Shown: positions 15,989 through 27,691, counted from the stretch's first letter. The stretch is 64,000 bases of DNA from Thermoplasmatales archaeon (GCA_016806715.1 CP060531.1:1597966-1661965); one strand, 5' to 3'. Numbers and translations are program-made. The notes: a model not told the origin generated them from the sequence alone.

Positions 15989-17098
15989 TCACACTTTAAC
16001 CAGTTTATATACCATGTCTCCACCTGATCTTTCCCCCTGATAAACAAGAATTTCAGGATAATGTTCAACAAAGGCTCGCAAATCATCAAAGCCATATTTC
16101 TCAGGTAGAAATTTATGGTCCAGATCACGAAGTTGTAAACCCAGTTGTGAACCAAGCACTTTGCCATCGCTGTCTGCTGATTTCTTTGCCGCAAGGGTAA
16201 GAAGGTTTCTACCTTCACTCTCCTTATTGCTAAAGCTCTTTCTCAGTTCTTTCACAAATTTATTGGTCTCGTCAATTGTAAAAACAGTGTACTGGTACTG
16301 ATTTCCATAATCATCCGGAAGCATGGGAGTTTTCTTTTCAGTAACAACCAGTCCCAGCTGCACAAGAGTTGTAAAGATTTTTTTCCTCCCCAGATGATCG
16401 AGCTCCGGCAGCTCCATGGCCAGACTTTCCATAAGGAATACGCTAACCTTCACGCATCCGAATTTTTCTCTGTATTTATCGTAAGAATCCAGAGCTGCCA
16501 TGGCGGCTCGAGTCTCGAATTGATTCAGGCCATCAATTACTCGTTCATCAACACCTATCGTAGCGTTTTCACCTGAGTTTCCTGTCTCTGTAACGGGTTG
16601 AATATCGTCAGTCTTGGCGTAGGAATAGTTTCCTTCCCCGACAAGTTTTTTCAGGTCTCCTGACAAGCTTTTCTCGAAACCTACAAAGTGAAGGTTTTTT
16701 CCCTTCTCACGGATTCTGTTTGCAATTGGCATATAATCGCGATCCCCTGCAAAGATTACTATTGTGGCAATATCTTCCCTGGTAAGGATTATCTCCTGAG
16801 CTGCAAGAGAAAGTTCTATATCTGCGCTATTTTTATACTGTGTTGATAAAATATCCACTATTCTTATACCGAGTCTCTGCAATTCCCTCTTTGAATCCTG
16901 CATGGAGCTCCAGTCGGCAAAAGCTTGCCTTATTATGATCTCTCCATACCGCTTCTTCAGCTTTTCAAGCTGGTTCGCAATAAACGTTACAGCAGCTTCA
17001 CCAGCATCCTCATAGGGAAACTCGTAGATATTTGTCAGGGAATAATAGAAATTCTCAAAGTCTATCAACACTGCTGCAAAATCTTTTCTGGTATCCAT
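15989..17098 (-). CDS. NYN-domain PIN-like nuclease with C-terminal LOTUS/OST-HTH
   Basis: A 369-residue protein. Residues 5-160 form an NYN (PIN-like RNase) domain: AAVLIDFENFYYSL with the first metal-binding Asp, the middle NSADIELSLAAQE with acidic residues, and IFAGDRDYMPIANRIREKG, the signature second acidic cluster. After a linker come a helical/winged region (about 200-285) and a C-terminal OST-HTH/LOTUS module (about 310-369) ending in strands GGDMVYKL. Such proteins (LabA, Limkain-b1/MARF1) cleave or bind RNA. Start chosen at ATG 17098. All acidic residues needed for a PIN-like site seem present, so I expect an active RNase; target unknown. Confidence 0.85.
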   Translation of the reverse strand: MDTRKDFAAVLIDFENFYYSLTNIYEFPYEDAGEAAVTFIANQLEKLKKRYGEIIIRQAFADWSSMQDSKRELQRLGIRIVDILSTQYKNSADIELSLAAQEIILTREDIATIVIFAGDRDYMPIANRIREKGKNLHFVGFEKSLSGDLKKLVGEGNYSYAKTDDIQPVTETGNSGENATIGVDERVIDGLNQFETRAAMAALDSYDKYREKFGCVKVSVFLMESLAMELPELDHLGRKKIFTTLVQLGLVVTEKKTPMLPDDYGNQYQYTVFTIDETNKFVKELRKSFSNKESEGRNLLTLAAKKSADSDGKVLGSQLGLQLRDLDHKFLPEKYGFDDLRAFVEHYPEILVYQGERSGGDMVYKLVKV

Positions 17099-17256
17099 TA
17101 TATTGATAACTGTTTTGTGTATAACTTTGTTTCCAATCGGCACAAAGGTGATCATTATTGATCTTCAAGCTAACGGAACTATGTTTCAATGGTTGACCTG
17201 GTATATGCTTTTATCCAGTTCTGATTCCCATGAACTGGTTGGGGATACGTTCGTTC

Positions 17257-17381: not shown

Positions 17382-17713
17382 TTGCAGGGTAATATGTTGA
17401 GGCGAAGAGTAGTCAATCTGTTCAGAGACCCACAGGTCAAGTTTTGCGTGGACTGCATCTCAGAAGCCACACTGTCATCGTCATACAAGCGTGGTCAAAA
17501 GAACTTTTTCATGACATATGCCCATGAAGGAAGGACGCACTGTTCACAAACATCATGGACATGGATGCAGAAAGCATAATCGATCTTTACAGGAAACGCA
17601 ATCGAATGGAACACTGCTTCAGGACAATAAGCATGGAAGATCTTGCAAAGCCGGAATTCAGCTTCGAAGTACCCATGAAACGGGAGCAGCTGCTTGAGAT
17701 GGGCTGGCAATGA
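17382..17713 (+). pseudogene. IS4/IS1634-type transposase relic
   Basis: Only the C-terminal end of a DDE transposase remains, in several frames. The last 45 codons (about 17570-17713) contain the Y-x2-R-x3-E-x6-K signature region as IDLYRKRNRMEHCFRTIS, with Tyr, Arg and Glu in register but serine where lysine is expected. Upstream the frame breaks repeatedly. No ends could be defined. Confidence 0.6.
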
Positions 17714-18017
17714 TTCCCAGTATTTATGGCGCGTAGGCCTGGCCTTTCCACGTTCTGGATCTCCCTCCAGCCTGAACCTCAGGTTAGCGAGGATATCAAG
17801 GGGACATTTCGGAGCTGAACAGAAATCGAACCTAGAACACAACCTCATGGAATCAACCGATGGCGTCTCCATTTCATATTCAGATTCGATGGATTTTCTC
17901 TCGTTTGTACGGTCTTTTGGATTTATTGGGGCACGGGTTGGGTTATTGTACCTTACCCCTCAAATTCATACAATGTCCCGTTTAAAATGTTGTTTTGGTT
18001 GATTTTGTGCGGTGATT
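17714..18017. other. Spacer before the integrated element
   Basis: No gene supported. Possible reading frames are antisense to the transposase relic and lack family features. The left boundary of the integrated element probably lies here, but I could not find a direct-repeat attachment site. Confidence 0.25.
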
Positions 18018-18230
18018 TCATGGCATTACGCTCACTGTTATGATAGCAGATTTCGCAACGATCAATGGCCGATTATTGGATCCCTGTAATTCCAGGAAAA
18101 ACTGGCCCGCTCTCTGCAGCTTACCGCTCTCAATGCGTCCGTTTATGAGGGAAATTGTGACGATCTTGCCCTCCAAACCTGTGTTTATTCCATCCGGCAC
18201 ACTGAAATTCCGGGTATCCTTATCATTCAT
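18018..18230 (-). CDS. Sm-like / Hfq-like small protein (70 aa)
   Basis: After a 17-residue polar start, residues 18-70 form a single Sm fold: GLEGKIVTISLINGRIESGKL matches the Sm1 part (strands around a conserved Asn-Gly turn) and KSAIITVSVMP resembles the Sm2 part of bacterial Hfq (K-x-A-I-x-T-V-x-P). Sm/Hfq proteins form rings that bind U- or A-rich RNA. It is the last gene of the element's seven-gene minus operon; its ATG overlaps the upstream gene by four bases, suggesting coupled translation. It is too divergent to be called an ordinary archaeal Lsm; a plasmid or virus regulator of RNA is the likely role. Confidence 0.7.
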   Translation of the reverse strand: MNDKDTRNFSVPDGINTGLEGKIVTISLINGRIESGKLQRAGQFFLELQGSNNRPLIVAKSAIITVSVMP

Positions 18231-18580
18231 GGAAATACCACTGTTCCCTTGATCAATGCGCTGATTATGTGTGGATCAAGCAGCCGAATAACAATCGCAA
18301 CGATCAGCAACAACAAGATCCCGATCATGCCTGCGCCTTCCTTACTATCGCTCGCAGATATGCCCTTAAAAATACCTGGGTTCTCTGCCATATTTTCGTT
18401 TCCAATTCTCTCATTCGCATCTTTTTCACCCTCTCTTTTTTTCTCTGTTTTCACGCTGAAGCCGTAAACTACGCTATTATTCAACACTAATTTGTAATTG
18501 ATCCCTGGCGCTCCGACCCGGGCACAATGTATAATTGACCTGCTGACACCGTGAAATTGCAATTTTGCAAAGGTTCTCAT
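18227..18580 (-). CDS. Small membrane-anchored protein of the element
   Basis: A 117-residue protein. The first 50 residues form a short beta-rich segment, then a very charged Lys/Glu linker, and a hydrophobic helix at about residues 86-105 near the C-terminus (MIGILLLLIVAIVIRLL). The ATG at 18580 overlaps the stop of the preceding gene as ATGA, which decides this start over an in-frame ATG nine bases earlier. Family unknown. As the only membrane protein in the operon it may tether the element's replication proteins to the membrane, which is speculation. Confidence 0.65.
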   Translation of the reverse strand: MRTFAKLQFHGVSRSIIHCARVGAPGINYKLVLNNSVVYGFSVKTEKKREGEKDANERIGNENMAENPGIFKGISASDSKEGAGMIGILLLLIVAIVIRLLDPHIISALIKGTVVFP

Positions 18581-18768
18581 GACTTCCACCTCCGCATGTT
18601 CTGGACAAGATTGGAGATCAATTCCTTGGCTTGGCCTATTTCAAGACCGGATAACCACTGTGCACCGTAAGCTTGCATGCGTTCAAGCACCAAGGAGATC
18701 TGATCCTGATTAAGCATTAAATTGCGTATTGCACGCACCTGGGCTTCGGTTGCCCTGATTGTCTTCAT
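18577..18768 (-). CDS. Hypothetical helical protein (63 aa)
   Basis: A small, mostly alpha-helical basic protein with a predicted three-helix layout and a C-terminal RRWKS. No motif identifies a function. Its ATG overlaps the stop of the upstream Sm-fold gene by four bases and its stop overlaps the next start, so it is surely part of the operon. Its size and charge would fit a DNA-binding or adaptor protein, but this is only a guess. Confidence 0.6.
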   Translation of the reverse strand: MKTIRATEAQVRAIRNLMLNQDQISLVLERMQAYGAQWLSGLEIGQAKELISNLVQNMRRWKS

Positions 18769-18962
18769 AGCTGCACCTCCTTGATCGACTGGATATCCAT
18801 GACTGGAACTCGGTAAAGAAAGCCGCTATCGATTTCAACCATCAGGCGCTTGAAACCAATGCAGGTGAGTATTCCCGTGCGTGTCTTCATTCCTGTTGTG
18901 GTCTTATACCGGATGCTTACCCTGCTGCCTTTCAGCAGCACTATCAGGGAACGCGGGATCAT
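18765..18962 (-). CDS. Second Sm-fold small protein (65 aa)
   Basis: Residues 8-60 show an SH3-like five-strand pattern: GSRVSIRYKTTTG, then TRTGILTCIGFKRLMVEI and a final RVPVMDIQSI strand. The Gly after the second strand and the order of strands resemble Sm proteins, with the last strand ending in an Ile-x-x-Ile as in Sm2. It is not closely similar to the other Sm-like gene of the operon. It starts four bases inside the end of the primase gene, so translation is probably coupled to it. An SH3-like DNA-binding protein is an alternative reading. Confidence 0.5.
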   Translation of the reverse strand: MIPRSLIVLLKGSRVSIRYKTTTGMKTRTGILTCIGFKRLMVEIDSGFLYRVPVMDIQSIKEVQL

Positions 18963-21900
18963 TGCTGTTCCCTCCTGAGTGGTATCTCAAAAGCCATCAT
19001 CCCGATCGTTTTTTCCTTAACTTTCGTAAAGTGTGCATCCGACATTATGGCTTCAATTTTTGATAGCCGTCCGCTATCTGACGTGCCCGATAACTCAATA
19101 TGGTATGTTTTTCCAAGCAAGCCAACACCGCATCCAGCGGGATCAGGATGAAATCCGAGCTTCGATAACTGTAATACAAACTTCATGGCTTCATCTTCAG
19201 TCACGAAATACCCCGTTCCTACAGTCTCTTTTTCCGGTGATTTTGTCACTGTGTCCATGTCGCCATTTTCAGGATTGTTGCTCGCGGCATCGGAATTTAC
19301 AGGTTCAGCATCCGATGCTGGACGATGAGGACTATCACTATTGGAATACCCCTCGTTTTTTTCATTCTCTGTGTTTTCATCATTTTTTTGTGAAGTATGA
19401 TCAGAAAAAATAGTAAACCGATCTCCGGGACATGACTCTAGGTACCCAGATTTAGCCATAATGGAATCAACCAAAGAACCAGTATTTTCCGAGCTCTCAC
19501 AGTCAGCAGTTTCCATCGATTTTTTTTCTGCACTATGATTCTCGGGAAAGTGGTTTACTATTTCTGACCCCATGTAAAAAGCCCTGAAATGCTCGCTCAG
19601 CAGATAGTCTATGTTCTGCGGAACTGCTGTTGCATATAGGTTTACTAATTTTTCAATGTTGGCGTCGATGGTCTTTGAGAGATATGTCAATCTGTCAACC
19701 AGCGGTATGATCACCAGTCCGCGCTTATCCTGGTCTTTCCCTTTTGGCTTCTCTCTCTCGATCACATTCCGCTGCTCCAGTGCTTTGAGGTACTTTCCAC
19801 ACATCGTCTTTGACTTGCCGATATTGAGAGGGCTTTCAGCCAGTGCGCGGCAAACTTCGGCTTGTGTGGGGTTGCTGTATGCTTCTTCATCGCTATTCTT
19901 GACATTAGCTTCACAAGCCGGCAATAGGACCTCATTAAGAAACAGGAACTGGGATTCAGTGAAACCATGCAGCGTTGCATTCAGTTCTGAGTTTGAAAAC
20001 TCATTTAGCAGTTCCCAGAGATCACACGGTCCAACCAGCACATGCTCCGACTCTCCTTTGAAGATTACTCTATCCGGTGTGTTGAATAGTGCATTCAAGC
20101 CGATATGGGACATTATTCTGGGGAACTTCCGCATGAGATCGTTCTGTTCTACTTTATTGCCCAGGAAGGTTTTTCTCATCTCCGCAGGTGAAACAATGTA
20201 AGGTCTCGGCCTATGCTGTTTCAAAAATTCTACAAGCTGGCGAATCTGGCTTCTTATTTTCTTTCCTTCTAAGTCATCAACCTGAGGAATTCCAAACTTT
20301 CTGTTAAGACTCAGGTCTATGGCGTCTGTGTACTTCTCTGCGGATTCCACCGGTTGAGCAACCTCAAAACGTGTTTCCAGGTCTTTCCAAGACAAATCTT
20401 CATCCTTTGAGGTGCAAAATATAATGGCTGGCCAATGCTTGTACACAATATGCTTGGTGTATTTTTTGTCTCCACCTTCTACGAAACTTGACTCCAGGTA
20501 CTCATCATCGTGGGACATCACGCTCAGCATGTCCACCCAAAATTCAGGACTGGGTCTCTCAAGAAAAACCAGGATCTTGTCTGTGAAATCGATCAGCGTG
20601 TACAGATTGTCTGTGACATTTGACTTTTCGCGCTTCAGTTCATCGAGACGGTCTTTTTTTTCTTTGTTTTCCTTGCTGTCAATTTCAGCGTTCAGGTAGT
20701 CGAGATAATCACCTATAGAGGTTTCCTTTCCGGTGAATTTGTTTTCAATTTTGCTGTTGTATTCTGGGCCATCCTCACTGAATGATTTAACAACTAGTTT
20801 TCCTCTTTCCCGCGAAAATGCTTTGCGTGAAATACTCTTCAGCTTAATTACATCCTCACTGGGCAAGTAATTGATCACATTTAGAACCAGGTAAGTTTTG
20901 CCTGTTGTGGACTCACTCACGAAGGCCAGGTTGACAGGATCGTCAGTATAGGCGGATATTCCCACATTGAGGATCTTCCGAATGTTGGGCTCCTCTCTCT
21001 TGACAGTTTTCAATGCATGTTTAACAATCTTCTCCTTCAAGCCTACTAACTCGGCAAGTCCGCCTTCAGTGTTCTTGCTCTTTGCTTTTGAATTGAAAAG
21101 CTTGAATACTTCGTGCCGAATGTCAGCGGGAACCTCTTTTAGTTCATACTCTATGCCACGCGAATAGACGTACGAAACTGCTTTTTTCAAGTTGTCCGGA
21201 GAATGGATCAGTCCGTCCGAGCATTGATGGTTTTTCGAGAATTCGGCAATCCATGTCTTATACCAATCACCACTGACGCCGGATTTCCTCAGTATGGATG
21301 CTGTCGTTATGGCTATACTCCAATGGGATCCGGCCCTCTCCGGCTTGTCTGTCTCCCATGCTAATTCAACAAGTTCCGATAACCTTTTGATTTCACCCTC
21401 GTTCGGGATCCTGCCTTTTTTCTCTAATACTGGCGTCTGTGACTTCCTTCCGGGGTTTACGAACGGCGCAAGTATTCTAAGATCCACCTCCCGGATTGGA
21501 GAGTTGTTTAACACATCGCCGGTGATTGTGAGGTACCGTCCTGAGCTCCACATTTCGAGTTTGCCGTCTCCAACTTTGGTTGAGTTCGAAAATTCCTTTG
21601 GGATTCCCTCCTTAGAGTGAACGAGAATTCGCAACCCTTCGCCTGACGGACTTTTCTCAGTGTAAGAATCCAGTAAGTCCACCAATTCCGAAGCCCATTC
21701 TACAAGGTTCCCATCTACAATTACGTGATCGGGATCTAATCCCGTTAACGCAAGGTCTTCAGTCAGAACGAAGCCGATTCCAATGTTTTTGATCCTTGCG
21801 CTCTCGAGCGCCCTTTCGAACGTGGTCCATGTTTCCAGATTAGTGCTGCTTGCTTTTTTGCCGTTGATTTGATACGGAACCTTTATCGACTTGTTTCCGC

Positions 21901-22090
21901 TCGGTTGCAGCGGCGTTTCGAGCTTGTTTCCCTGATCATCCTCATAACGCCAGTTGATCCAATGCGGTATGGCCTTGAGTTCTGCGGGAATGTTATCCGG
22001 TTTTATTATGTAACCAATAAAACTTATTTCCCCGGATGTATTGCTACTATGGACATTGACGGCAGGGGAGCTTTCCTTGTCCTTACTCAT
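18959..22090 (-). CDS. Primase-polymerase / ATPase replication protein (1043 aa)
   Basis: Large multi-domain replication protein. Residues 35-200 form an archaeo-eukaryotic primase (AEP) domain like that of phage NrS-1 polymerase: KVPYQINGKKASSTN, the metal site LDPDH (D119, D121), SPSGEGLRI (147-155) and EMWSSGRYLTITG (179-191). Residues about 340-700 are a P-loop ATPase with Walker A SESTTGKT (392-399) and Walker-B-like ILVFLE (506-511), with a charged coiled coil between. A winged-helix region follows, then a Ser/Asn/Glu-rich linker (about 880-960) and a small C-terminal domain. It probably primes and unwinds the element's DNA. The ATG overlaps the upstream stop (ATGA). Confidence 0.85.
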   Translation of the reverse strand: MSKDKESSPAVNVHSSNTSGEISFIGYIIKPDNIPAELKAIPHWINWRYEDDQGNKLETPLQPSGNKSIKVPYQINGKKASSTNLETWTTFERALESARIKNIGIGFVLTEDLALTGLDPDHVIVDGNLVEWASELVDLLDSYTEKSPSGEGLRILVHSKEGIPKEFSNSTKVGDGKLEMWSSGRYLTITGDVLNNSPIREVDLRILAPFVNPGRKSQTPVLEKKGRIPNEGEIKRLSELVELAWETDKPERAGSHWSIAITTASILRKSGVSGDWYKTWIAEFSKNHQCSDGLIHSPDNLKKAVSYVYSRGIEYELKEVPADIRHEVFKLFNSKAKSKNTEGGLAELVGLKEKIVKHALKTVKREEPNIRKILNVGISAYTDDPVNLAFVSESTTGKTYLVLNVINYLPSEDVIKLKSISRKAFSRERGKLVVKSFSEDGPEYNSKIENKFTGKETSIGDYLDYLNAEIDSKENKEKKDRLDELKREKSNVTDNLYTLIDFTDKILVFLERPSPEFWVDMLSVMSHDDEYLESSFVEGGDKKYTKHIVYKHWPAIIFCTSKDEDLSWKDLETRFEVAQPVESAEKYTDAIDLSLNRKFGIPQVDDLEGKKIRSQIRQLVEFLKQHRPRPYIVSPAEMRKTFLGNKVEQNDLMRKFPRIMSHIGLNALFNTPDRVIFKGESEHVLVGPCDLWELLNEFSNSELNATLHGFTESQFLFLNEVLLPACEANVKNSDEEAYSNPTQAEVCRALAESPLNIGKSKTMCGKYLKALEQRNVIEREKPKGKDQDKRGLVIIPLVDRLTYLSKTIDANIEKLVNLYATAVPQNIDYLLSEHFRAFYMGSEIVNHFPENHSAEKKSMETADCESSENTGSLVDSIMAKSGYLESCPGDRFTIFSDHTSQKNDENTENEKNEGYSNSDSPHRPASDAEPVNSDAASNNPENGDMDTVTKSPEKETVGTGYFVTEDEAMKFVLQLSKLGFHPDPAGCGVGLLGKTYHIELSGTSDSGRLSKIEAIMSDAHFTKVKEKTIGMMAFEIPLRREQQ

Positions 22091-22248
22091 TTTTGCACCG
22101 CCTCCAATAATCTAAGCCAATCTCCAGCTTTCACCAAATATTCCTCGCGCGAAATGCTGTCAGGTTGCGTCAGTATTATATTCGCAAATGGACCGCCTAT
22201 CTTGAAGGCTCGTTCTTTCAAGGCCCTCAGGTCAACAGAATCAGACAT
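22087..22248 (-). CDS. Small hypothetical protein (53 aa)
   Basis: A 53-residue helical protein (MSDSVDLRALKERAFKIG at the start). It has a strong AGGAGG ribosome-binding site eight bases before ATG 22248, embedded in the end of the upstream gene, and its TGA overlaps the primase ATG. I do not recognise the family. Position directly before the primase suggests a replication or regulatory helper. Too short for routine gene calling. Confidence 0.65.
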   Translation of the reverse strand: MSDSVDLRALKERAFKIGGPFANIILTQPDSISREEYLVKAGDWLRLLEAVQK

Positions 22249-22408
22249 TTTCGGCCTCCTTTTCTAATTCCAGTCTGAGCGACCCGTCGGATAGTTCAGT
22301 CAGAATGACAGCCATGGGCGGGGTATCCGAGTTTATTCGTACCCAGTCAGTTGGCAGTGCTAGGTACCCCGTGTACCTGTTCCAGTGGATTCTTTTTCTC
22401 CATATCAT
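22241..22408 (-). CDS. AbrB/SpoVT-like small DNA-binding protein (55 aa)
   Basis: First gene of the element's minus operon. The pattern RKRIHWNRYTGYLALPTDWVRIN, then a hydrophobic VILTEL strand, Asp-Gly-Ser and LRLEL, follows the swapped-hairpin AbrB fold found in archaeal antitoxins and transition-state regulators (basic strand, Leu-Pro-x-x-Trp helix, acidic-turn-strand). It probably binds the promoter region at 22409-22508 and controls the operon, as is common for first genes of plasmid operons. Its stop lies seven bases inside the next gene. Too short for routine calling. Confidence 0.6.
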   Translation of the reverse strand: MIWRKRIHWNRYTGYLALPTDWVRINSDTPPMAVILTELSDGSLRLELEKEAENV

Positions 22409-22508
22409 GTTTAACATAATTTCTATGAAATATTTGTCATTCGCTTACGAGATTAGGGTATCTATCCATAAACCTTTAATACCAAAATAGCACTATGAAA
22501 GGAAAGCT
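22409..22508. promoter_or_regulatory. Divergent promoter region of the element
   Basis: Hundred-base spacer between the minus replication operon and the plus winged-helix gene. A TATA-like CTTTAATAC at about 22472-22480 suits the plus gene (ATG 22509); an AT-rich AAATATTTCATAG on the minus strand suits the operon. Likely target of the element's own regulators. Confidence 0.45.
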
Positions 22509-23615
22509 ATGACATCCGGAACTATCAGGGGGAAGAAGTGGGAAACGCGCAGATGCATAGTCGAAGCCCTAGCTTCCCATCCGGATGGTATGATGTCGAG
22601 AGCCGAACTGTTCGCTTTGGTGCAAGAAAAGAGAGGGATTGGGATTCACTCAATCGAAAAGTCGCTCAGTTCACTGATGGAGAAAAGCAGGATGCCAAGG
22701 CTAGGTAATGATAGGCTCTTCGGAGAGGAAGATCAGCTAATTGAGAGGGTTGTTGGGTTTGCAGGCGGTCCTCGGGTCTTTTATCGATTCTTGCATGAGC
22801 CCAATGAGCGGGATCTAGCGCAAGCGATAGAAAAATACGAGGACAGGGCAAAGCGTGCTCCTGCGGCTCGCGCACGTTCGCCACCTGACTTTCACTCACT
22901 TGCCGTGGAGAAGATTCTCTGGGCATCTGAGCTTGCTGAATGGATATGTAGAGCGACAGGATACGATGAAGAAAAATTCGAGAATTCTGCTTTCGGCAGG
23001 GAAATGCACAGGAGGTATATCGAAGCCAATTACCTGTCATTCAAATTGAAGTATGGAATAGCCCCGGTCCTTCCAATGGTTGAAGGCATTTATTCAGAGG
23101 ATCCACATGATATAATGGCAGTCAGCACCCTAGTAGTAGAGGAAAGAGTAGGGCGAATTCGGAAAGATGAAACCGCAGAACCCGGCAAAGGTAAAGGCCA
23201 TGGATACAGCGGCTTAAAACTTAAGGTATGCCGGGCGCCTGAGAACAGTACATTACTCATCATTCACAGACACAGAATAGTATGCCCTGACCCATCATGC
23301 CCGATGCGAGTGATAACCAAGCTGGAACTTACAAACATGGGTGATCTGCGCCCCAGTCAGGGATGGTTGGAACATGGATTTAGCGAAAGCGAGCCGAGGT
23401 ATCCCTCGTTTCACATTATCTCTGTTATGAAAGCGGGTAGGGAAACCGAGGGAGATAGTACGCTCACTATTTCTCCTGAGCAGTATGAATTTTTGGACAA
23501 ACACCCGGAGATCAATCTGTCCGCTGTCATACGTGCCGGCTTCTATGGGTTTATCTATGAATATGAGAAGTTATCTGAAGCAGAACGACTTTTATTTCTT
23601 AATAAATTGGATTAA
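22509..23615 (+). CDS. Winged-helix protein of the integrated element (368 aa)
   Basis: Residues 8-75 form a winged helix (ETRRCIVEALASHPDGMMSR, then a recognition-helix region ending SSLMEKS). The remainder (about 110-368) is mostly helical with a beta-rich part near 250-310 that includes CPDPSCP, a possible metal or disulphide knuckle, and a C-terminal helical end. No known full-length family comes to mind. Divergent from the replication operon, so it may be its regulator or a partition/replication accessory protein. The ATG is preceded by a TATA-like box about 30 bases upstream. Confidence 0.6.
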   Translation: MTSGTIRGKKWETRRCIVEALASHPDGMMSRAELFALVQEKRGIGIHSIEKSLSSLMEKSRMPRLGNDRLFGEEDQLIERVVGFAGGPRVFYRFLHEPNERDLAQAIEKYEDRAKRAPAARARSPPDFHSLAVEKILWASELAEWICRATGYDEEKFENSAFGREMHRRYIEANYLSFKLKYGIAPVLPMVEGIYSEDPHDIMAVSTLVVEERVGRIRKDETAEPGKGKGHGYSGLKLKVCRAPENSTLLIIHRHRIVCPDPSCPMRVITKLELTNMGDLRPSQGWLEHGFSESEPRYPSFHIISVMKAGRETEGDSTLTISPEQYEFLDKHPEINLSAVIRAGFYGFIYEYEKLSEAERLLFLNKLD

Positions 23616-23645: not shown

Positions 23646-23698
23646 TTATGGGTCTAATTATAGGCACACAAACATACTGAATACGGACAGACCCATAA
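23646..23698. repeat. 10-bp inverted repeat before the integrase
   Basis: TTATGGGTCT (23646-23655) and AGACCCATAA (23689-23698) are perfect inverted copies 33 bases apart, in the spacer between the winged-helix gene and the integrase. Could be an operator, or arms/core of a recombinase binding site. Confidence 0.5.
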
Positions 23699-23771
23699 AT
23701 GTTCATAAGCGAATACCGTATATTTTCGTAGTGCATGTCAGTTTATGACTTTTTAAGCGAAATACAGGGAA

Positions 23772-24908
23772 TTGTTAGAGAATGAGGAAATAAGCCGATG
23801 GTTCAGCAATCTCAAGGCTAAGTCATATCTCACGGCAACGGTTTACCTCAGGGGACTGGGCTATTATTGCGTATTAACAGGGACTACTCCCGGTTCAATT
23901 ATCCAGGATGTGAAGTCTGGCAAATTGCGAAATGACTTTATGGATTTTGTCAGGAAAATGGAAAGGGAGGGGAAAGCCGGATCCTATATAGCGCGATACA
24001 AGAAGGTTTTGCGTTCATGGTTAGGCTTCAAAGGACTGGACTTCAAGCTTGGTGTCAATATTGCCTATGAGAACAGGGCCCCTAGAGTGGAAGGGGAAAG
24101 GATACCGGAGAAGTCAGAGCTTGCAAAGATACTGAGGAACGGATCAGCAAGGGCAAGACTGGCGATCTCGTTGCTTGCCTTCAGCGGCCTTAGACCTGAG
24201 ACACTGGGCAACGCCGAAGGCAAAGACGGCATGAGAGTATCGGACCTCCCAGAAATGAAGATAGAAAACGGCAAAGTGGAATTTGAAAAAATTCCCACCA
24301 TGGTTAATGTGAGGTACACACTGAGCAAGGCGAAGTATACTTATTTTTCATTTCTGGGGCAAGAAGGATCCAATTACCTGAAAGAATACCTCGAATCAAG
24401 GATCAATGAAGGCGATGACCTGAAAGCCGATACCCCACTATTCAAATTAGACCCACAGGGACGCATTAGCCATGAATACATAAGAACGCAACTGGCGACA
24501 AGAGACATCAGAAAAGCGATAACTGGATCCGGCTATTCATGGAGGCCTTACGTTTTAAGAGCCTATTTTGCCACCGCTCTTGATAACGCAGAAAATAAGG
24601 GCCTTATTTCCCATCCTTGGAGAATGTTTGTCATGGGCCATAAAAGAGACATTGAAGCCCGTTATTCCACCAATAAGAGACTGCCAACGGATATGATCGA
24701 AGAAATGAGATCAGCGTACCTGAAGTGTTCTAAGTTCTTTGAGACTGAGGAAAGGGGAATAAAAGAAGAGGATTACCAGAAAATGCTCGGGGATTCTGCC
24801 ATTGACACATTGACGGGGGCGTTTGGCATCACACTTACGGACGATCAGAAAGAGGAGCTCAGGAACCTTGACACTGAGAATACCAGAAAAGATGGAGGAG
24901 ATATTTAA
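23772..24908 (+). CDS. Tyrosine recombinase (integrase), ends probably frameshifted
   Basis: Site-specific recombinase of the archaeal XerC-like type. N-terminal SAM-like core-binding domain (about residues 5-95) and catalytic domain (100-330) with Arg of FSGLRPE, the RPYVLRAYFAT box (Tyr instead of the usual His before the second Arg), FVMGHKRDIEARYST with His and the nucleophile Tyr. The long frame can start only at a TTG (23772). A better ATG at 23735 opens another frame reading MSVYDFLSEIQGIVRE that meets this one near 23784 with a one-base slip. At the C-end the usual tail continues in other frames to 25049. Probably a recently broken integrase, or less likely a frameshifting one. Confidence 0.75.
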   Translation: MLENEEISRWFSNLKAKSYLTATVYLRGLGYYCVLTGTTPGSIIQDVKSGKLRNDFMDFVRKMEREGKAGSYIARYKKVLRSWLGFKGLDFKLGVNIAYENRAPRVEGERIPEKSELAKILRNGSARARLAISLLAFSGLRPETLGNAEGKDGMRVSDLPEMKIENGKVEFEKIPTMVNVRYTLSKAKYTYFSFLGQEGSNYLKEYLESRINEGDDLKADTPLFKLDPQGRISHEYIRTQLATRDIRKAITGSGYSWRPYVLRAYFATALDNAENKGLISHPWRMFVMGHKRDIEARYSTNKRLPTDMIEEMRSAYLKCSKFFETEERGIKEEDYQKMLGDSAIDTLTGAFGITLTDDQKEELRNLDTENTRKDGGDI

Positions 24909-25049
24909 GGGCAAGAAGGCCGATATCCCGAATAACGGTAATTCCCAGAAGGTGATCTCCTTCAAAGAAGTGGAAACATACATAGAACAGGATGTGAATA
25001 CGTGAGGGACTTTCCGGGAAACAAGGCCATCGTCAAATTGCCTTCGTAA
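24892..25049 (+). pseudogene. Displaced C-terminal tail of the integrase
   Basis: From 24892 a second frame gives KVISFKEVETYIEQD, and a third (the integrase's own frame) gives EYVRDFPGNKAIVKLPS then TAA at 25049. Joined, these make the tail that normally closes integrases of this family (helix, aromatic patch, Lys-rich strand). The two shifts suggest indels near 24890 and 24995. Confidence 0.5.
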
Positions 25050-25122: not shown

Positions 25123-25773
25123 CTATTTATCTCGGATATTCTTAATGTCTTTCCTGATCCGACCGGCTACATCTTTCAACTTTAGATTGAGAAAGTCAAG
25201 GGAAATTAATATTTCACTTTTGTCTCTAGGAAATATATCAAATGCAAACCATTTGGTGATCTTCCTTACAGCAAGCGATTTTAATTTCAATTTTATTAGA
25301 ATATACAACTGTACAGGTTCGGAAAAAGAGTGTGCTAACTTCGAAAGCGATCTTATTGCACTCTCACCTTTTTTAAATGCGTATTTTTCAATCCAAACAG
25401 AAGTTTCATCAAGTAAATTATTAACTGAGTCCTCGTCTTGTGTTGTAGCCATAGCTATAAGAACTGTCCTCCTGACTGAATTGAGTGGTAAGAAAATTAC
25501 ATATCCATTTTTCCATAAATATTCTATAAGGACTGCGAGTGATGTACGTTTATTTCCATCTACAAATGGATGCATTCGGATAATAGATTCCATTAGAGAG
25601 GCTGCCTCTTTAAAAATATCTCTGTAAAGTTTCTCGCCTGAAACAGTGAGTTCTGGCTTTTGAGAAATGGCCTCAATCACTCCCTTGTTAATTACTCCTG
25701 GCTAAGCCTTTAAATTGTTTACAACTTCGTCGTGGATTTTGATTATATCTTCATAGGACAAAAGATGGCTCAT
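25123..25773 (-). pseudogene. Doc/Fic-domain toxin interrupted by TAG
   Basis: Fic/Doc domain protein that would modify a target by AMPylation or phosphorylation. The active motif HPFVDGNKRTSL is complete. The frame from GTG 25680 lacks the usual N-terminal helix, but the same frame runs upstream to ATG 25773 (MSHLLSYEDIIKIHDEVV) interrupted only by a TAG at 25702-25704, where a serine would fit (PGVINKG follows). The C-terminal 90 residues are an extra helical region unlike short Doc proteins. Twenty bases upstream is a 41-codon gene that may be its antitoxin. Either a nonsense-killed toxin or a shortened protein from GTG. Confidence 0.65.
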
Positions 25774-26217: not shown

Positions 26218-26259
26218 GAGAACCCAAAAAATAAGGCAATAGTGAAATTGCCATCCTGA
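26218..26259 (+). pseudogene. Relic of another integrase tail
   Basis: Fourteen codons ending NKAIVKLPS and TGA match the tail that ends the integrase at 25049 (NKAIVKLPS, TAA) but with different codons and a different preceding sequence. So it derives from a second integrase, not from copying. A perfect stem CCTGAA/TTCAGG (26255-26268) overlaps the stop codon. The rest of that gene (26075-26217) is not readable. Confidence 0.5.
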
Positions 26260-26431
26260 ACTTTCAGGATCCCAGAAGCACAAACCATCCCTCATACGCA
26301 TTGCCATGTCTCACAGGTTGAAAGAAAATGTACCCTCTAAGCAAAATATCAAAGACACTAAGGAAACGTCTAAAATAAAATTATATGAGGTCTGAATAAA
26401 AATTCAAATAGTGGATTTTTATATTTCTTCC

Positions 26432-26638: not shown

Positions 26639-26806
26639 GAATCCACATTTATTTCTGCTTAATTAAAAATGAAATACAGCTAATTAGAAAATGTGACAAA
26701 CAATTGTGGAACTCTTGATCTCCTTGAGGGTATATTACTTCCCACAAAGAGTTCAAGAGATCTAGAAATAAATAAAACTCCAGATGAATTACCATACAGG
26801 AGCAAA

Positions 26807-27691
26807 ATGGCGTATATCAGGCTAATAAAATATCCGGGCGCCAAGTTCGCTATCATCCCGGACATAATAAGAACGTTTTCTAATTCTGGCTGCAATCAAT
26901 TCGTAGATGTATTCGGAGGTTCGGGATCTGTCTCTCTCAATATGAATTACCCGTCCACGATATATAACGATCTTGACCCACAATTTGCGAATGTTTTCAA
27001 GGCTATAAAATATCATCCCGGAAAGCTTTACGAGATGCTGAAATATGCCGATTCAAACCAGAATGTAAGCAATGAGGGCAGACTTAAGACGATTTCATCC
27101 GGCATGGCGAAAAAGTTAGGGAGAGACAGCCATAAAATAAAGAGTCCGTTCTATGCAAATGATTATGATTCGTCAAGAGCGGGTTTATCAACACAACAGG
27201 ATTCACTAAAAAATAGTGATGGAGATCCGGAATGGGCAAGAGACACAATAATTAGATTCAGCCGCACTTTTGGTGGAATGGGTGAAACCTATGCGACAAC
27301 AAATGAGAAATCAACCGATCTTTTCCTGAGAAAAACAATAAACAGTTTTGGGAAAATTCATGACGTGGTAAGGTTATGGAAGATAGAAAATATGGATTTT
27401 CGAGAGATTATTGCGAAATACGACTCAGAGAACACTTTCTTCTATTTCGATCCTCCATATCCCGGGAAGAACTGGTATTCATACAGCTTTGCCAACGAAG
27501 ATTTTTTGGAGCTTGCAAAATATTTCAAAGGCTTGAGAGGGAAATATCTTCTCAATCTGAATGCAGATGACATTCAACTTGGCAGTATTTTTGGAAAGCC
27601 AGCTTTCATTAAAAAATACAGGAACCAGAACGTGAAGGAAGCGAATACAGCGGGCGGAATCAGATCCAAGTCATTTTACACGAACTTCTAG
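26807..27691 (+). CDS. D12-class DNA adenine N6-methyltransferase
   Basis: A 294-residue Dam-like enzyme. Visible: KYPGAK near the N-terminus (motif X, substrate/AdoMet binding), FVDVFGGSGSVSLN (motif I, AdoMet binding), IYNDLDP (motif II) and FDPPYPG (motif IV, catalytic DPPY). It transfers a methyl group to N6 of adenine in a short DNA site. Start at ATG 26807 is supported by AGGAG just upstream and by the usual position of KYPGAK; the frame is open to GTG 26693. No restriction nuclease is adjacent, so it is an orphan methylase, probably from mobile DNA. Recognition sequence not predictable from here. Confidence 0.87.
   Translation: MAYIRLIKYPGAKFAIIPDIIRTFSNSGCNQFVDVFGGSGSVSLNMNYPSTIYNDLDPQFANVFKAIKYHPGKLYEMLKYADSNQNVSNEGRLKTISSGMAKKLGRDSHKIKSPFYANDYDSSRAGLSTQQDSLKNSDGDPEWARDTIIRFSRTFGGMGETYATTNEKSTDLFLRKTINSFGKIHDVVRLWKIENMDFREIIAKYDSENTFFYFDPPYPGKNWYSYSFANEDFLELAKYFKGLRGKYLLNLNADDIQLGSIFGKPAFIKKYRNQNVKEANTAGGIRSKSFYTNF

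Follow-up and report, generated by a model that had tools for sequence, protein, structure and literature searches.

Hfq-like proteins encoded directly downstream of a helicase gene have been described on Thermococcus plasmids and on pMETVU01, and a role in plasmid replication was suggested for them (Krupovic et al. 2013, PMC3543421). In these archaeal replicons, namely the pTN2/pEXT9a-type plasmids of Thermococcus and pMETVU01 of Methanocaldococcus, the Hfq-like gene directly follows the replication genes, seemingly within one transcription unit, and a small DNA-binding regulator is located near the replicase. Sulfolobus pRN1-type plasmids and pSSVx likewise have a gene for a small DNA-binding regulator in front of that for a primase-type replicase (PMC3543421). 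A recent survey recorded Hfq from bacteria plus one archaeon (PMC10221803). Our searches of the open-access literature turned up no account of Hfq in elements of Thermoplasmata. To our knowledge, no Hfq-like gene is known on the Sulfolobus pRN1-type plasmids or pSSVx.

Here we analyzed a 64-kb stretch of DNA (the window), corresponding to positions 1,597,966-1,661,965 of a 1.96-Mb single-contig genome, and found in it an Sm/Hfq operon that is linked to replication and conserved among archaeal integrative elements (Table 1). That an Hfq-like gene accompanies a replication module is already known from other archaeal plasmids (PMC3543421), and pCIR10 and pMETVU01, in which the Hfq-like gene follows those for primase and helicase, share the layout of the window element. 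New are the presence of two Sm-type proteins, the kind of replicase, the host order, and how broadly the arrangement is conserved within one order. The Hfq-like C-termini of pCIR10 and pMETVU01 matched the sm70 profile (3e-12 and 7e-8, respectively, in a 165-ORF set), the AEP profile had no match to these two plasmids in the same set, and the sm65 profile detected no second Sm-like protein in the Thermococcus and Methanocaldococcus plasmids. The latter plasmids have a PolpTN2-like or other primase, an SF1 helicase, and an Hfq-like domain to which a zinc finger is usually fused, whereas the window element family has an NrS-1-type primase, ATPases of various kinds, a second Sm-like protein, a tyrosine integrase, and no C2H2 finger (none was found in the long sm70 members). 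A tblastn search of 72,556 plasmids with sm70 returned only two records, both belonging to the PMC3543421 set and both at chance-level E-values; the profile-based matches above are secure.

Table 1. Features of the element in the window, with positions counted from its first nucleotide.
Feature	Coordinates	Strand	Size and character	Basis
op1	22241..22417	-	58 aa; putative AbrB/MazE-type swapped-hairpin DNA-binding protein	Family alignment, PDB profiles
op2	22087..22248	-	53 aa, conserved; motif LK..A......L...PD	Same-place homologues
Replication protein	18959..22090	-	1043 aa; NrS-1-type AEP primase-polymerase domain, P-loop-like middle, shared C-terminal domain	
sm65	18765..18962	-	65 aa; predicted second Sm-like five-stranded barrel	AF2, Foldseek, hhalign
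op5	18577..18768	-	63 aa, conserved, in a minority of elements	
op6	18227..18580	-	117 aa; C-terminal transmembrane segment	
sm70	18018..18230	-	70 aa; predicted Hfq-type Sm protein	Profile, AF2 + Foldseek
Cys-rich element protein (CxxxxxCxxxxCPLD)	17495..17872	-	Homology in N-terminal part only	21-member family
Divergent 368-aa protein	22509..23615	+		Similar-sized divergent genes at the same place in related loci
Putative attachment core AATACGGACAGACCCATAAATGTTCA	23680..23705	+		Same core at tRNA 3' ends in relatives
Tyrosine integrase, archaeal XerA-like	23772..24908	+		Pfam Phage_integrase 3.4e-5; PHROG integrase 2e-9

The seven overlapping ORFs of the preliminary description were recovered, all intact, as a single gene string on the minus strand (22417-18018), in which neighbors overlap by 8 nt once and then by 4 nt five times; the first gene, op1, may begin at 22417 instead of 22408. 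Purine-rich sequences resembling ribosome-binding sites, several of them clear GGAGG-type, were present upstream of six of the seven starts, and none was seen upstream of op1. Because homologues of op1, op2, op5, sm65, and sm70 occurred in the same order at other loci and dN/dS was low in close pairs of the operon genes (~0.05-0.45), we consider the ORFs to be real genes, and purifying selection on them in these pairs is clear.

The last gene of the string had been described as having an Sm/Hfq-like strand pattern, a reading that both the family profile and structure prediction upheld. A profile of the 32-member sm70 family had Methanocaldococcus jannaschii Hfq as its best match in the PDB (5dy9, E 6.5e-9, then 1e-7), followed by Hfq from Aquifex (3.6e-5), Staphylococcus (6.7e-5), and many other sources, and 29 of the 32 members matched Pfam Hfq below E 1 (best 2.7e-5). 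The window protein itself scored 13.8 bits against the curated Pfam cut-off of 27 bits, which one relative (G035) exceeded with 31.3 bits; alone, it reached only E 0.017-0.062 against Hfq models, so that the assignment rests on the family. The AlphaFold (AF2) model had five strands and a mean pLDDT of 79.9 (~86-91 in the core), with the N-terminal helix reduced to a short helical turn at residues 17-19, and all 50 top Foldseek matches in the PDB were Hfq (TM to target 0.61-0.84). Taken together, profile and model indicate that sm70 is an Hfq-type Sm protein. Its best solved match, MJ1435 of M. jannaschii (2qtx, 4x9c, 5dy9), has the same pocket lysine and differs in that many of the element proteins carry an N-terminal extension. 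We know of no replication operon that contains MJ1435.

In E. coli Hfq, K56 and F42 belong to the uridine pocket, Tyr25 and Leu32 to the distal A-site, and R16 and R17 to the rim. Across the sm70 family, Lys60 (equivalent to K56) was invariant and position 44 (equivalent to F42) was aromatic, either Phe or Tyr, in all 32 members, while Gln43 was kept in 13. The Sm2 segment read KHAI, KSAI, or KGAI, with the His in only 11 of 32 and Tyr55 not kept. The distal A-site was lost (Tyr25 to T/S, Leu32 to E) and the rim arginines were replaced. Since the uridine-pocket residues are kept and those of the distal face and rim are replaced, our best guess is that sm70, if it binds RNA, would bind uridine-rich RNA on its proximal face, and an annealing role like that in E. 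coli seems less likely. Sequence alone cannot tell such RNA binding from binding of ssDNA or dsDNA.

We also considered, and rejected, the possibility that sm70 is a stray copy of a host SmAP. Two ordinary SmAP genes are present at other places in the genome, and the Hfq of the element is therefore not a housekeeping copy; the two SmAPs differ in the Sm2 segment (VIRGSNVV in one) and scored 6e-4 and 0.02 on the sm70 profile, compared to <1e-18 for nearly all family members. Being foreign to the host Sm set and located near variable accessory genes, sm70 could conceivably act on the host to the benefit of the element, through RNA turnover, small-RNA pathways, or the blocking of SmAP functions, but it is locked to the replication operon and not to the variable cargo, and we regard such a host-directed action as distinctly improbable.

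The second Sm-like protein, sm65, belongs to a family of 19 members. Its AF2 model (pLDDT 90.7) comprised a helix plus five strands arranged as in Sm proteins, so that an Sm-type fold was predicted for both small proteins, and thus the Sm pattern previously ascribed to it holds at the level of the barrel fold and not at that of an Sm1/Sm2 sequence signature, which was absent in searches of sequence libraries. Neither sm65 nor its family alignment (A2) was recognized by any profile in these libraries, the top structural match in the PDB was GerQ (6.3e-4) rather than Hfq, and the equivalent of Hfq Lys56 is missing, all of which would fit a generic SH3-like barrel that lacks an Sm-type ring or RNA binding, leaving sm70 as the only true Sm protein. 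Against this stand the Sm order of the secondary structure elements, the further Foldseek matches, most of which were Hfq (E 0.008-0.06, TM ~0.7), and an hhalign comparison that placed the sm65 and sm70 families in register over the whole fold (E 0.0011, with a Prob of only 21%). We hold the SH3-like reading to be somewhat doubtful, and class sm65 as Sm-like by predicted fold, not as a proven Sm protein. Elsewhere, one element encoded two tandem sm65-type genes after its Prim-Pol protein (L015:533-1112), and elements of another family encoded, at the sm65 position, a 99-100 aa protein with an SH3/Sm-like pattern that fell below profile thresholds (L116:8360-8659 and L117:10598-10900).

The large central gene had been proposed to encode a primase-helicase with a Walker A motif, of which the primase part stood. 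An AEP primase domain spans about residues 30-215; residues 67-221 matched 6k9a (PDB record title "Primase"; phmmer E 1.5e-24), which we take to be the NrS-1 phage primase-polymerase, and residues 32-213 matched a PHROG DNA primase (1e-34). The AEP metal residues were present, as the earlier reading of LDPDH held, in the form of the DxD of this motif, which aligns with the NrS-1 primase, and the E/D of LEMW. By sequence, then, the domain is NrS-1-type, sharing DxD and SPSGxGL with the phage enzyme (6k9a, 6a9w) and differing from it in the larger size of the protein, in unrelated C-terminal parts, and in motif II, which reads SPSGEGLR versus SPSGDGLH. Because the motif II His is thus an Arg, catalysis by the window primase is not assured. 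In other AEPs, loss of this His is family-specific, and in the DR0530-like family it is replaced by Arg or Lys (PMC5862659). The Walker A proved weak, in that the P-loop-like motif in the middle of the protein, SESTTGKT, departs from a strict G/AxxxxGKS/T, and the middle and C-terminal parts had no match among Pfam, PHROG, NCBIfam, or PDB profiles; we infer a helicase half from position and this motif. The C-terminal residues 902-1043 were common to element proteins from L017 and L016. Used as a query against collections of viral and genome contigs, the 1043-aa protein had no relative. In related elements a D5_N/DUF5906 helicase or a PF09250 Prim-Pol is often found at the corresponding place, indicating that the replicase is modular and is swapped. 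The closest relatives of the window primase domain were stand-alone AEP domains of 181-183 aa at three loci from one genus (L010, L011, L012), in seemingly ordinary chromosomal surroundings.

At the head of the operon, op1 is AbrB/MazE-like at the family level, which fits its probable role as an autoregulator of the operon. Pfam MazE_antitoxin was matched by 18 of the 20 members of its family alignment (A3; best 1.6e-8), with no match for the window protein itself, and PDB profile matches were to AbrB, MazE, and SpoVT proteins (9.7e-6 to 1e-3). The AbrB-like protein 3o27, presumably that of pSSVx, also matched op1. Homologues of op2 (23) occupied the same place and were found only in these element loci, and op2 had no Pfam match. 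Four clear members, including that of the window, plus one marginal member were found for op5, and no homologue was found for op6, in which the C-terminal hydrophobic segment was the sole part resembling anything recurrent; small hydrophobic ORFs recur at this place. The Cys-rich protein beyond sm70 is often its neighbor in other loci. Its identification as the counterpart of the Thermococcus zinc finger that is fused to Hfq was considered and is unsupported, the cysteine spacing being different.

The gene order recurs well beyond the window, and so neither a unique arrangement nor non-Sm folds for both small proteins, the two outcomes that would have spoken against the preliminary description, was observed. 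In single-query searches of 117 genomes of the same order, sm70 was found in 31 and sm65 in seven. Iterated profiles across ~48 loci recovered 40 sm70 loci, 19 sm65 ORFs, 23 op2 ORFs, and 26 op1 ORFs, with the sm70 and sm65 genes nearly all in one archaeal order and a tyrosine integrase often adjoining. The usual order was op1, op2, primase (fused or separate), a large ATPase-type protein, sm65, variable small genes, sm70, and the Cys-rich protein, usually on one strand, with a minority of loci deviating. Among the 40 sm70 loci, 27 were preceded on the same strand by op1 or op2, 32 had a co-directional neighbor of 430 aa or more, and 13 had sm65 nearby. Where 5 kb or more was available on each side of sm70 (20 loci), such a large co-directional protein was nearby in 18, op1/op2 was upstream on the same strand in 14, and an integrase was within 9 kb in 10. 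All of these are raw counts from partly non-independent loci, two pairs of which are identical at sm70. An even sample of 400 genomes from the class contained sm70 in 27, of which 25 belonged to the order and the other two were weak partial matches, and in a 390-genome sample of the phylum Pfam Hfq was matched in only seven genomes, all in the order and with coordinates that fall at the element loci analyzed here. In close pairs, dN/dS was 0.06-0.28 for sm70 and 0.07-0.30 for sm65. Searches with the sm70 proteins gave no match among viral contigs and chance-level matches only among phages.

The assignment to an archaeal element was likewise confirmed, the element being plasmid-like, integrative, and of Thermoplasmata. 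In relatives L017, L059, L061, and L062 the integrase lies by an attachment site at a tRNA 3' end, and the 26-nt core seen in the window recurs in L059-L062, at tRNA 3' ends a short way upstream of the integrase, as well as in L017, at its far end (position 13717 in L017, 1409 in L059, and 2698, minus strand, in L061). Integrase copies in related genomes (85-86% identical, 447 aa, intact) follow tRNA-Pro 3' ends. A second, diverged element of the family is present in the same genome (L017; 95,000-114,900), where it follows tRNA-Arg and contains this tRNA, an integrase, a split primase/ATPase, sm65, and sm70; the 3' end region of the 368-aa gene in the window matches it. The window has this core in the gap that separates the 368-aa gene from the integrase, where it resembles a plasmid site that is still uncut. 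No tRNA was detected in the 64 kb, leaving the core without an adjoining tRNA, so the window copy may have come by another route, or may be a rearranged tandem copy or a remnant. No direct repeats flanking the element were found in the window.

The window copy is partly decayed: the C-terminal end of the integrase has two offsetting frameshifts (24885-25043), the Cys-rich gene is interrupted by what by sequence inspection appears to be a transposase remnant, and the attachment site is off a tRNA. These features, together with the motif II substitution in the primase, would suit an operon that is a decaying remnant devoid of present function. Yet all seven of its ORFs are intact with overlapping starts, sm65 is conserved relative to a second genomic copy with 65% identity (dN/dS 0.17), and the frameshifts could be assembly errors, rendering this explanation improbable in our estimation.

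Several other features were observed in the surrounding DNA. About 1.2 kb beyond the integrase, a 42-nt stretch (26229-26270) shows similarity to the L017 integrase gene at its 3' end and is possibly a remnant of another integrase copy. Also beyond the integrase are one gene of the Fic/DOC family (25123-25680) and one for a D12-type DNA adenine methyltransferase (26693-27691). On the other side, 15989-17155 encodes a protein in which an NYN nuclease-type domain is linked to one of OST-HTH/LOTUS type, adjoined by a 218-aa membrane-protein-like ORF; no homologue was found in the related element loci.

That an Hfq-like gene is linked to unlike replicases argues for a functional tie. We consider RNA-level control of element replication by the Hfq-like protein the most likely role, at roughly an even chance of being correct. 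In such a scheme, the AbrB-type op1 would probably hold its own operon in check, the NrS-1-type primase-polymerase protein would start and drive element replication, and both Sm-fold proteins would be made from the same message as the replicase. For the Sm proteins we infer ring formation, RNA binding, a target, and an effect on copy number: sm70 would most likely form a ring with a proximal face that binds uridine-rich single-stranded RNA, and would most likely act post-transcriptionally on element transcripts (the replicase mRNA and/or a small element RNA), tuning replicase level and hence copy number, while sm65 would be a diverged partner, serving as heteromer subunit or adaptor. The more specific version, in which sm70 and sm65 form a mixed ring that binds element RNA and sets primase level or priming activity, amounting to a replicon-borne archaeal Hfq-based copy-number control, appears quite unlikely. 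Sm-based RNA control of priming or copy number had been proposed in the preliminary description and was not borne out by look-ups for an RNA partner in the non-coding segments of the window, which yielded neither an Rfam match nor a structured segment or antisense RNA, with single-strand folding no better than that of shuffles (z -1.2 to +1.5).

Alternatively, the Sm proteins could be direct replication accessories, as a ring that holds primer RNA or ssDNA at the fork or origin, or that compacts element DNA. The tight linkage to the replicase gene, whatever the replicase type, is compatible with this, as are the presence of an Hfq entry with dsDNA among the Foldseek matches and the DNA binding of E. 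coli Hfq (cited in PMC3543421). The conserved pocket residues, however, are those for uridine-rich RNA, and element operons often carry regulators, such that linkage alone proves no role at the fork; overall, we judge an accessory function unlikely and favor RNA-level control.

Of 117 genomes in one archaeal order, 31 thus encode Hfq-type proteins, for the most part on apparent mobile elements. With the plasmids of Thermococcus and Methanocaldococcus included, a recurrent association is seen between Hfq-like genes and replication modules whose replicases are unlike one another, extending a link formerly reported only for a few hyperthermophile plasmids. Control of, or help in, the DNA replication of archaeal replicons by an Sm ring would be directly testable with small purified proteins, with sm65 as an added partner.
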